A stretch of DNA of 36,389 nucleotides from an uncultured Eubacteriales bacterium (GTDB taxonomy: Bacteria > Bacillota > Clostridia > Peptostreptococcales > Anaerovoracaceae). The DNA is taken from NCBI GenBank assembly GCA_902801255.1, contig CADCHO010000018.1:1-36389 (forward strand), read 5' to 3'. Positions 7,222-11,225 of the stretch are shown piece after piece (position 1 is the first letter of the stretch; each line of letters begins with the position of its first letter). The translations under genes and the position numbers were made by a program. Under the pieces are notes generated by a model. It was not told the DNA's origin and did no database searches. It worked only from the letters and a program-made list of their open reading frames with translations.

Positions 7222-8646
7222 TCATTTTTCCCGCGCGGCCGCCATCATAAGAGCGCATTCTATGCGCTTTCTGTGCAGTTTGCAGCCAAAACGGTAAACT
7301 TTATTGATATCTCCGTTTGAGTGATAATTGTTTGCAGCACAGCCTCCTGCGCAGTAAAGCCTTGCCCAGCAGTCTTTGCAGTCGTCCCGTGTATAGATGT
7401 TGTTGCCGTTTCTGAAGAAGTCTACAGTCTCCGGATGAGTTATGCCCTCATAAATATTACCTACTATCATATTGTCATCGCCGACAAACTGATGACACGG
7501 ATAGAGGTCGCCGGTCGGTGTTACTGCAAGGTATTCCGTAGCAACTCCGCAGCCTGCCACCCTCTTATAGATGCAAGGTCCGCCGGTCAGATCGACTGTA
7601 TAATGATAAAAACTGAAGCCTTCTCCGCGCTCCTCACGTGCGAGCATTTCGAGAGCAAGTTTCTCATATTCCTCATAGAGCTGCGGCAGATCATCTTCGT
7701 GCAAAGCATATGGAACATCAGGATCAGATACAACAGGCTCGATCGACGTTTCTCTGAACCCGAGATCCGCCATCGCCAGTACGTCAGCTGCAAAGTCCTT
7801 GTTATATGCGGTGTACGTGCCGCGCATGTAGTACTCGGATGACCTCCCGGCATTCTTCAGGCGCGAGTCCACAAGAGCCTTGAAGTTGTCCATTATCAAA
7901 TCATATGTGCCGCCTCCGGTCTTGCTGTGCCGCATGCGGTCATGAGTTTCACGCCTTCCGTCCATGCTGAGCACAACATTGCCCATCTCGCGGTTCGTGA
8001 ACTCTATAACATCGTCATCGATCAGCACCCCGTTCGTCGTCAGTGTGAAATTGAACAACTTGTTGTGCTTTTTCTCGAGCTCCCTTCCGTACGCCACTAT
8101 CTCTTTGCAGACATCCCAGTTTATGAGCGGTTCACCTCCGAAAAAGTCAACTTCAAGATGCCTGCGGGCACCGGAATGCTCCACGAGATAATCCAAAGCG
8201 CGCTTTCCGACCTCAGCACTCATGATGCCGCTCTTACCGCTGTAATCACCTTTACCGGCAAAGCAGTACTCACAGTCCATATTGCATCCATGCGCAACGT
8301 GAAGGCATATTGCCTTGAGGACAGACTGTTTGATCTTGATCTCGTCTGCTGCCTGTTCGAAGGGATCTTCCGACCACAGCAGCCCGTTTTCACAGAGTTC
8401 AGCTATGTCTTCCAGTGTCTCAGCTGCATCTTCCATGGTGATGCCGTGTTTACGGGCGATCTCAGATGAGATCTCAGTTCTGAGCCTGCTGTCGTTCAAA
8501 ACTGCTTTGGGATCGCACTCAGACCTGCATACTTCTGTATCCAGTCTCTCAATTGCATCGTAAGCGACATCGTCGACCGAGTGCACTGCACCGCTCGCCG
8601 CGTCGATAATCATATTGAATCCGTTTAATCTGTATGTATGTATCAT
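7222..8646 (-). CDS. scfB: radical SAM SCIFF peptide maturase (thioether cross-link forming)
   Basis: Installs thioether cross-links from peptide cysteines in the SCIFF precursor encoded just upstream. The 474-residue protein has an N-terminal peptide-recognition-like domain (about 1-100) and the radical SAM cluster motif CNMDCEYC (Cys121, Cys125, Cys128). FFGGEPL (168-174) contributes to S-adenosylmethionine binding. A SPASM/twitch C-terminus supplies auxiliary-cluster cysteines at 358, 366, 384, 423, 426, 432, 436 and 455. All motif cysteines expected for a functional enzyme are present. The ATG follows AGGG by eight bases. A terminator-like hairpin lies between scfA and this gene, consistent with less maturase than peptide. 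Length and cysteine layout match the SCIFF maturase family closely. Confidence 0.95.
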   Translation of the reverse strand: MIHTYRLNGFNMIIDAASGAVHSVDDVAYDAIERLDTEVCRSECDPKAVLNDSRLRTEISSEIARKHGITMEDAAETLEDIAELCENGLLWSEDPFEQAADEIKIKQSVLKAICLHVAHGCNMDCEYCFAGKGDYSGKSGIMSAEVGKRALDYLVEHSGARRHLEVDFFGGEPLINWDVCKEIVAYGRELEKKHNKLFNFTLTTNGVLIDDDVIEFTNREMGNVVLSMDGRRETHDRMRHSKTGGGTYDLIMDNFKALVDSRLKNAGRSSEYYMRGTYTAYNKDFAADVLAMADLGFRETSIEPVVSDPDVPYALHEDDLPQLYEEYEKLALEMLAREERGEGFSFYHYTVDLTGGPCIYKRVAGCGVATEYLAVTPTGDLYPCHQFVGDDNMIVGNIYEGITHPETVDFFRNGNNIYTRDDCKDCWARLYCAGGCAANNYHSNGDINKVYRFGCKLHRKRIECALMMAAAREK

Positions 8647-8666: not shown

Positions 8667-8701
8667 AAAAGAAAAAGCGGCGCTGCATTCAGCAGCGCCG
8701 C
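8667..8701 (-). terminator. intercistronic attenuator/terminator between scfA and scfB
   Basis: A perfect 10-base stem (8692-8701 pairing with 8677-8686; arm GCGGCGCTGC) with a five-base loop is followed on the minus strand by TTTTTCTTTT. It starts 10 bases after the scfA stop and ends about 20 bases before the scfB ATG. It probably releases most transcripts after the peptide gene while letting some continue into the maturase. Confidence 0.85.
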
Positions 8702-8711
8702 CGTAAGCATC

Positions 8712-8861
8712 TTACTTTTCCTTGCGCTGCTCGCAGTGCTGATTTGCAACGCTGCAGGAAGTCTTGCTTGCAGACTGGCATGAAGTCTGGCACTCACCGC
8801 ATCCGCCTGTGACTCTGGACTCAGCCATATCTCTTGTTGTAATTGTCTTAATTCTCTTCAT
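8712..8861 (-). CDS. scfA: SCIFF ranthipeptide precursor with five cysteines instead of six
   Basis: Precursor of the ribosomally made SCIFF peptide (six cysteines in forty-five), substrate of the adjacent maturase. The 49-residue sequence starts MKRIKTITTRDMAESR (leader-like) and continues GGCGECQTSCQS, ASKTSCSVANQHCE, which is unmistakable for the family. Cysteines are at 21, 24, 28, 36 and 43. Family members read SACKTSCT here; this one reads SASKTSCS, so the fourth cysteine is Ser32 (codon AGC, one base from TGC) and the usual threonine at 37 is serine. In the characterised Clostridium thermocellum peptide the reported thioether joins exactly these two positions. GGAGGG lies eight bases before the ATG, under a strong promoter. 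Confidence 0.95.
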   Translation of the reverse strand: MKRIKTITTRDMAESRVTGGCGECQTSCQSASKTSCSVANQHCEQRKEK

Positions 8862-8895: not shown

Positions 8896-8924
8896 AGGAT
8901 ACCATCACGTCGCAAATCTGTCAA
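8896..8924 (-). promoter_or_regulatory. sigma-A promoter of scfA
   Basis: Consensus -35 TTGACA at 8919-8924, exactly 17 bases, then TATCCT (four of six) at 8896-8901. Transcription would start near 8889, leaving a leader of about 28 bases that carries GGAGGG. It lies directly after the stop codon of the stress-protein gene. Confidence 0.8.
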
Positions 8925-10142: not shown

Positions 10143-11225
10143 CTATTTAAGGAACTTGCTGTTGTTCGTCAGAATAAAGATTTCAGCAATAGCATACAGC
10201 ACCAGATAGTCGTCATCATATGAAATTATGATGTCATTTCTGCACCTTCCATGCTGATCAAAAAGAAGATTCGGCGAACCTCCGATGACCGCTTTCAGCT
10301 TTCCCTCATGCTCTATCATATAGTTGCATGATATCTTTGCTTTCATGCATGACGGGAAGAGGATCATCGTAAATATTCCTGCATCGGTGTCAGCCTCAAA
10401 GCCCTCACCACGGGAATCCCTGAACCTCCTGATTTCTCCGAAATGCTCTCCGTCAGAAAACAGCTCAAAGCCTGCAGATTCAGCAGGATAACCTTTTTTG
10501 TCGAAAGAGTGCGGCACCACGGATGCCATCTCATTGCCATCTACATCATACACTTTTGCTGTGAACGGACGCAGCGAAGTCTCAACTCTGAGCACATCAT
10601 TGCCATCTGAATCCCTGAAGTATCCTTCGACTGAATTGTGATAGTAAAACTTGTAGAAATCCAGGCTTTCCGGCACTTTCGCACCTCTTTCCGCATGGAG
10701 CTTTTCTATAAGTTCCGCCAGATGTTTTACCAGCATCACAGACGCGAGTTTAAATCCTGCAAACACTGCGTATCTTTCAGGGGTAACTTCTGCCTCCTGC
10801 GGATTTACAAGATTCCCGAATCTGTATTCGTCCTCATCTTTTCTGATGATGTTCTCAAGTCTGGTAACATGTTTGACGTCGATATAGTTTTTTCCGCGCG
10901 AAATAACCACGCAGTCCTTGAAGCTGCACGGTCCGAATACTATGCTGTCACCCGGAAATCCCTTATGTTCAGCTATCCACGGTTTGCCGAGAGGAGTGTC
11001 AAGATCCTTGAGTTTTTCATAGATCTCGGCAATGCTCATATCGGTCTTTACGATCTTTTCATAGATGCTGCGTTCATTACGGGTCCCCCCGCCGCGGTTC
11101 CAGAATATCCCGAATGCGATCAGCAGGGTGATCCCGCCCATGATGTATCTGCCTACAGACATCATGAGCAGGCTCATTATTACTGCCAGAATTCCAACAG
11201 CGGTTATCGCTTTATCTTCTTTCAT
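10143..11225 (-). CDS. membrane-anchored protein of unknown function
   Basis: A 360-residue protein that I do not recognise. Two hydrophobic segments (about 7-24 and 28-42) form an N-terminal hairpin, followed by a positively charged stretch (NRGGGTRNERS), so the remaining 310 residues are probably cytoplasmic. That part has a helical zone near 155-180 (LASVMLVKHLAELIEKL). It is followed by beta-rich segments with short repeats of the type VYDVDGNEMASVV, FRDSRGEGFEADTD and ISYDDDYLVLYAIAEI, loosely reminiscent of Tubby/LURP-one-like folds; this resemblance is not proof. It is the last gene of the glutaminase operon, 31 bases after phosphoglucomutase, with a weak GGGG ribosome binding site. 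The stop lies next to the stress-protein promoter without a terminator. Confidence 0.7.
   Translation of the reverse strand: MKEDKAITAVGILAVIMSLLMMSVGRYIMGGITLLIAFGIFWNRGGGTRNERSIYEKIVKTDMSIAEIYEKLKDLDTPLGKPWIAEHKGFPGDSIVFGPCSFKDCVVISRGKNYIDVKHVTRLENIIRKDEDEYRFGNLVNPQEAEVTPERYAVFAGFKLASVMLVKHLAELIEKLHAERGAKVPESLDFYKFYYHNSVEGYFRDSDGNDVLRVETSLRPFTAKVYDVDGNEMASVVPHSFDKKGYPAESAGFELFSDGEHFGEIRRFRDSRGEGFEADTDAGIFTMILFPSCMKAKISCNYMIEHEGKLKAVIGGSPNLLFDQHGRCRNDIIISYDDDYLVLYAIAEIFILTNNSKFLK

Follow-up and report, generated by a model that had tools for sequence, protein, structure and literature searches.

A SCIFF precursor with serine at the position of the bridging cysteine

What does a SCIFF maturase do with a precursor in which the cysteine reported to form the thioether is a serine, and is that serine real? 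The question is raised by scfA, a small gene within 36,389 nucleotides of an uncultured Eubacteriales bacterium, the whole stretch analysed here and called the window below. scfA (8712..8861, minus strand) encodes a SCIFF ranthipeptide precursor of 49 aa, MKRIKTITTRDMAESRVTGGCGECQTSCQSASKTSCSVANQHCEQRKEK, as translated from the window ORF at these positions. It scored 77 bits against the TIGR03973 profile (cut-off 50) and 75.8 bits against PF13165 (cut-off 27). Translation confirmed the reading of the first-pass annotation, with cysteines at positions 21, 24, 28, 36 and 43, Ser32 and Ser37; residue 34 is Thr. With five cysteines and Ser32, the peptide departs from the six cysteines in 45 residues that describe the family, and it lacks the donor Cys32 of thermocellin-type peptides. 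By homology scfA is a SCIFF precursor, though not by the literal family name, and a TIGR03974 maturase gene, scfB, lies 65 bases downstream.

Three codons of scfA are central to what follows. Codon 32 (8766..8768, minus strand) is AGC for Ser where other SCIFFs have TGY for Cys; base 8769, named earlier for read mapping, is off by one. Codon 34 (8760..8762, minus strand) encodes Thr, the likely acceptor residue, and codon 37 (8751..8753, minus strand) encodes Ser; the Cys32 SCIFFs carry Thr or Gly at this position. The thioether had initially been placed between residues 32 and 37. Published work agrees on Cys32 as the donor and on Thr37 as its partner in vitro, but co-expression in E. coli gave a link from Cys32 to the γ carbon of Thr34 (PMC8326336, PMC8172795).

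The window system shares its precursor family, an adjacent maturase and the cluster cysteines with CteA/CteB (thermocellin) and Tte1186a/Tte1186. Unlike these, the Ser32 systems have Ser32 for the donor Cys32, Ser37 or Ala37 for Thr37, and Val368 in the maturase; the CteB counterpart of residue 368 is Ser, at position 344 when counting starts from the Met at chain position 6 of PDB 5wgg. Freyrasin (PapA/PapB) is, like SCIFF, a radical-SAM non-α thioether peptide, but its links are Cys-Asp (PMC8172795); the window maturase scored 265 bits against the PapB model, under the cut-off of 340. A structure search returned no real match to the SCIFF peptide among solved structures. Our literature search found no report of a Ser32 SCIFF, although the original papers (Hudson 2019, Grove 2017, Haft and Basu 2011, Bruender 2016) could mention one.

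Ser32 is conserved in the genus and recurs across the family

Genomes of the window's genus, the window's own included, carried a SCIFF above the cut-off in 43 of 47 cases, and Ser32 is present in each of the 43 peptides. At residue 37, 42 of them have Ser and one (L016) has Ala. The four genus genomes lacking the peptide, 68-94% complete, yielded no maturase at E 1e-30. In the family sample, SCIFF was present in 209 of 296 genomes and 74 of 92 genera. We take this family to be Anaerovoracaceae, where NCBI places Candidatus Crickella merdequi and Eubacterium brachy, two species whose records share contig coordinates with a genus genome (G003) and a family genome (G210), respectively. Peptides were read for 72 of these 74 genera, mostly from one genome per genus, giving 18 genera with Ser32, 24 with Cys32/Gly37 and 30 with Cys32/Thr37; among the genera read from several genomes, none was mixed at residue 32.

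We also scanned one genome per species for the SCIFF core with any codon 32 not starting with T, a design blind to TCN serines and to other residues whose codons start with T. At least 120 stretches were found, and each of the 120 listed has a Ser codon at 32, either AGC or AGT. Separate assemblies titled Eubacterium brachy ATCC 33089, Baileyella intestinalis and Mobilibacterium timonense have Ser32. B. intestinalis (L195 here) was described in a study of pig isolates; in a comparison of 24 strains, which may not have included this one, that study states that every SCIFF-type precursor carried the six-cysteine motif (PMC7738495). Some of the scan matches listed come from MAGs labelled Oscillospiraceae or Ruminococcaceae, labels that may not give the true family. 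At the level of the class, SCIFF was found in 322 of 391 sampled genomes. None of 87 further class-sample loci had Ser32; these were 27 best-scoring matches, a choice that favours Cys32, and 60 genomes picked across families and scores.

A normal SCIFF accompanying the Ser32 copy was looked for, without success, in the window's own genome and in the 34 other Ser32 genomes searched. In the former, no second SCIFF with Cys32 was found, the sole other match (L002, E 0.5) containing a stop; of the latter, 33 have a single SCIFF and the remaining genome carries two Ser32 copies. That single double, L181 and L209, consists of two Ser32 SCIFF-maturase pairs in one MAG (Pal332_bin16). Tandem double precursors were seen as single frames of 97 and 95 aa at L091 and L052 (both G086) and L309 (G324), each unit having its own leader-like part. 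At L036 / L172, the peptide frame diverges from the family beyond Cys43 and the best single maturase match covers 240 residues, which may reflect an assembly fault or decay.

Residues 32, 34 and 37 and the remaining cysteines

Of 323 loci, counted with several genomes entered twice through two collections, 321 match a core pattern in which Cys21, Cys24 and Cys28 are fixed, residue 32 may be Cys or Ser and residue 34 may be Thr or Ser; the remaining loci, L002 and L046, do not contain a complete core. At least 182 loci have Ser32 (62 from genome searches and 120 from the named-species scan, among the matches listed), namely 174 with Cys36/Ser37, six with Cys36/Ala37 and two with Ser36/Ser37. 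The Cys32 loci comprise 85 with Thr37 and 54 with Gly37. Across these 321 loci, Cys32 was never paired with Ser37 or Ala37, nor was Ser32 ever paired with Thr37 or Gly37.

Reduction to distinct peptides left 211, comprising 87 Ser32 (among the matches listed), 47 Cys32/Gly37 and 77 Cys32/Thr37 sequences. Thr34 is constant in all 211, and residue 37 takes four identities (Thr, Gly, Ser and Ala). Many Cys32 peptides have Gly37, which makes Thr37 unlikely to be the acceptor in nature, and because Gly37 offers no side chain for a β or γ link, the comparison favours Thr34 in that role. The whole core from residue 21 to 36 is nearly invariant, however, so conservation does not single out Thr34 or Cys28.

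Cys43 is present in 210 of the 211 distinct peptides, the exception being cut by a contig end. Cys36 has become Ser in 2 of the 87 distinct Ser32 peptides (among the matches listed) and in none of the 124 with Cys32. These two, L133 and L256, retain the family cysteines 21, 24, 28 and 43 and have an additional Cys13, and with Ser at 36 as well as 32 they make Cys36 doubtful as a universal substitute donor. Cys13 occurs in 15 of the 87 distinct Ser32 peptides, and Cys46 in 17 of the 87 (both among the matches listed), in 1 of 47 Cys32/Gly37 and in 0 of 77 Cys32/Thr37 peptides. Ser32 peptides with the extra Cys46, such as those that end in CEQC or CEKC (for example L082, L086, L102 and L107), are scattered across the Ser32 lineages. 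On the 66-row maturase tree described below, Cys46 requires ten changes and is present in 9 of the 31 rows with Ser32 and 1 of the 35 with Cys32. One reading is that a sixth cysteine was regained repeatedly at the C-terminus after the loss of Cys32, although these counts cannot separate gains from losses. As a general replacement donor Cys46 was rejected, being absent from the window's genus.

The maturase is intact and differs beside a SPASM cysteine

scfB (7222..8646, minus strand) encodes a SCIFF maturase of the radical SAM/SPASM type with 474 aa. It scored 665 bits against TIGR03974 (cut-off 425), and its residues 1-470 align with PDB 5wgg (CteB) at 505.6 bits. As noted at the outset, all cysteines of the CxxxCxxC radical-SAM motif and of the SPASM region are present. 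The radical-SAM motif, Cys121-x3-Cys125-x2-Cys128 (8263..8286, minus strand), is kept in 29 of 29 thinned Ser32 maturases. Within the SPASM region, Cys358 to Cys455 (7282..7575, minus strand), Cys358, 366, 384, 423, 426, 432 and 436 are conserved in 29 of 29 and Cys455 in 28 of 29. dN/dS of scfB was 0.038-0.046 in three of ten genus pairs, the others being saturated at synonymous sites. On these comparisons scfB is judged intact and under purifying selection. Synonymous differences in scfA, counted over 42 codons against ten genus loci, were well below those in scfB (for L010, pS 0.18 vs 0.60), which suggests constraint on scfA codons or RNA.

Codon 368 of scfB (7543..7545, minus strand; GTT, Val) lies two residues after SPASM Cys366 and tracks Ser32. 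In the alignment of thinned maturases, column 368 is the one column with a residue that is fixed in all 29 Ser32 rows (Val) and makes up 6% or less of the remaining 73. A motif reading extended this comparison: 154 of 167 Ser32 maturases were readable, and all 154 have Val368 (among the matches listed). Cys32/Gly37 maturases (49 of 53 readable) have Ser in 46, Ala in two and Cys in one, and Cys32/Thr37 maturases (67 of 79 readable) have Ala in 46, Ser in 17 and Val in four. Among loci missed by the motif, 6 of 13 with Ser32 were read later and all six have Val, and 5 of 16 with Cys32 were read and have Ser or Ala; another 30 Cys32 loci gave 21 readings at 368, none of them Val. Overall, Val368 occurs in 154 of 154 readable Ser32 loci (among the matches listed) versus 4 of 137 readable Cys32 loci. 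The four exceptions, all Cys32/Thr37 (L301, L313, L315 and L317), mean that Val368 alone does not dictate Ser32.

The criterion that picked out Val368 also yields a private column in the Cys32/Gly37 clade (458) and two in the 17 family Cys32/Thr37 rows (405 and 467), so a single private column is unremarkable in itself. The three Ser32 signature columns (368, 427 and 458) cluster near SPASM cysteines, with a P of about 0.0006 computed post hoc; elsewhere, both Cys32/Gly37 columns and 1 of 5 and 1 of 8 columns in two Cys32/Thr37 sets do so. Columns 427 and 458 fail to track Ser32 throughout, the window itself having Trp427, and L190, L181 and L209 have Trp427 and Phe458 as in the Cys32/Gly37 clade. 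The pattern is no more than suggestive, but we consider it fairly likely that ScfB has co-adapted to the Ser32 substrate.

Evolutionary history of the Ser32 form

A quick tree was built from 102 thinned maturases out of 300 found. It places all Ser32 and all Cys32/Gly37 maturases in one clade (SH-aLRT 99), separate from the Cys32/Thr37 maturases. The Cys32/Gly37 SCIFFs of related lineages thus share a maturase clade with the Ser32 forms, and Thr37 is likewise missing from their peptides; unlike the Ser32 forms, they keep Cys32 and have Ser, Ala or Cys at residue 368 in the 49 of 53 maturases read. In a careful 72-row tree, L190 groups with the Cys32/Gly37 clade (99/97), and in a 66-row tree from which the four Cys32 maturases with Val368 were left out, the lineage of L190, L181 and L209 does so as well (98/98, from a bootstrap that had not settled). 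These three loci come from MAGs labelled Oscillospiraceae.

On the best 66-row tree, two changes are needed for Ser32, and each coincides with a change in Val368. This corresponds either to two Cys-to-Ser changes or to one change and one return to Cys. AU tests did not reject Ser32 as a single clade (p 0.256 and p 0.204), nor a single Ser32 clade without L190 (p 0.377). A sign test on the co-change of residues 32 and 368, with at most two co-changes, gave p 0.5, and two pairs cannot reach significance. The AU and sign tests thus fell short of statistical proof of co-evolution, and the apparent co-change of the two residues is no more than suggestive.

Organization of the locus

A terminator-like hairpin with an 11-pair stem followed by a T run lies between scfA and scfB (8676..8702, minus strand) and is a possible attenuator; the scan of the window region gave four terminator-like sites, with 2.0 expected in shuffles. 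By our own criterion, applied across loci without a shuffle control, the hairpin is present in 42 of 42 genus-search loci, 94 of 121 other Ser32 loci (among the matches listed), 13 of 43 Cys32/Gly37 and 28 of 70 Cys32/Thr37 loci. Such a hairpin may set the precursor level above that of the enzyme. A promoter-like site upstream of scfA (8896..8924, minus strand) matches the consensus at 10 of 12 positions, with TG before the second hexamer; it is a consensus match only, from a region with three such sites found and 3.0 expected in shuffles.

In the window, rdgB (Ham1 family) and a BrkB-type gene lie downstream and a universal stress protein gene upstream. These three genes were sought at Ser32 loci with at least 500 bases past scfB: of 106 such loci (among the matches listed), 35 have rdgB downstream, 28 have the BrkB-type gene on that side, and 33 have the stress protein gene upstream. 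None of the three was found beside SCIFF in 19 Cys32/Gly37 and four Cys32/Thr37 loci. Each occurs in a minority of the 106 Ser32 loci, and a fixed partner among them was rejected. A 360-aa ORF at 10143-11225 (minus strand) had no Pfam match at 1e-5.

Possible chemistry of the Ser32 system

We are highly confident that the locus represents a genuine Ser32 variant of the SCIFF ranthipeptide system. A conserved five-cysteine clade with intact maturases, set beforehand as the test of a real variant, was found, some of its peptides carrying an extra Cys46 or Cys13. Faulty sequencing or assembly, or decay of the locus, might be suspected from the window's genome, which is 78.5% complete and in 81 contigs, but Ser32 in 43 of 43 genus peptides, in 18 genera and in named isolates, together with an intact maturase of low dN/dS, leaves this explanation with almost no probability. 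For the lineage, decay and error, including the single-base error (AGC for TGC) that had been proposed for codon 32, are refuted by the recurrence of Ser32 and the state of the maturase. Because Ser replaces the bridge cysteine, the maturase is intact and it differs at the matching site, the modification chemistry has probably been altered in the Ser32 lineage.

With Cys32 replaced by Ser, the reported Cys32 thioether cannot form. Our leading guess, held at somewhat less than an even chance, is a relocated thioether joining another cysteine to Thr34. As in CteB, the leader peptide would be bound by the N-terminal recognition domain of ScfB. The 5'-deoxyadenosyl radical would still attack Thr34, and the sulfur would be supplied by another conserved cysteine, for which Cys28 is favoured over Cys36 because two Ser32 peptides have lost Cys36. 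In CteB, a substrate cysteine binds at the open site of an auxiliary cluster and was proposed to mimic the donor (PMC6231123, PMC8326336). An altered residue next to a SPASM cysteine would be in keeping with a lost Cys32 donor; a moved donor leaves the changed surroundings of that cysteine unexplained. The explanation as a whole, a genuine variant with an intact Val368 maturase and a relocated donor, is similarly tentative and falls short of even probability.

Two other outcomes have to be weighed against a relocated thioether. The maturase might instead join Oγ of Ser32 to Thr34, an ether isosteric with the Cys32-Thr34 thioether, with Ser replacing the thiolate near the open auxiliary cluster. 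A hydroxyl is a worse donor than a thiol, and we found no report of a SCIFF-type enzyme making such a link. The residue replacing Cys32 was Ser in all 120 listed among at least 120 scan stretches (codons beginning with T being outside the scan), 321 of 323 loci fit a core in which residue 32 is either Cys or Ser, and Thr34 is retained in every distinct peptide; but core positions with no known part in the chemistry are just as invariant, which makes the conservation of Ser weak evidence. Moreover, two of the nine codons one step from TGC encode Ser, which also counts against the ether. In its favour, the residue two past the SPASM cysteine changes along with residue 32. Rotapeptides, a known radical-SAM class, provide a precedent for a C-O cross-link, although theirs runs from Thr to Gln (PMC9055067), and Ser has been named as a cluster ligand in LipA (PMC6231123). 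On balance, we regard the ether as improbable. It is also conceivable, if rather unlikely, that no link is made at residue 32, either because the Cys32 thioether is not the selected output or because other links, common to all SCIFFs, are; Ser32 would then be a tolerated near-isostere in a peptide that works through its other cysteines or unlinked. In vitro and in vivo studies place the link at different positions (PMC8326336, PMC8172795), Cys43 is retained in 210 of 211 distinct peptides, and residue 37 varies among lineages, all of which is in keeping with such a peptide. However, the low dN/dS of scfB (measurable in three of ten pairs), the absence of the maturase from the four peptide-less genus genomes and a maturase change that tracks residue 32 beside a SPASM cysteine argue that modification here may still be selected.

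Implications for SCIFF biology

The Ser32 lineage constitutes a natural experiment in a modified peptide that is widespread in clostridia (322 of the 391 class genomes sampled). Because related lineages offer both Cys32 and Ser32 substrates, together with enzymes differing beside a SPASM cysteine, the role of the open auxiliary cluster becomes directly testable. Moreover, the variation of residue 37 (Thr, Gly, Ser or Ala) against an invariant Thr34 bears on the published dispute over which threonine is linked. Should ScfB, retuned by Val368, link the oxygen of Ser32 to Thr34 where its relatives use the sulfur of Cys32, which we think unlikely, this would be a natural thioether-to-ether switch inside one enzyme family, and one that may have flipped twice.
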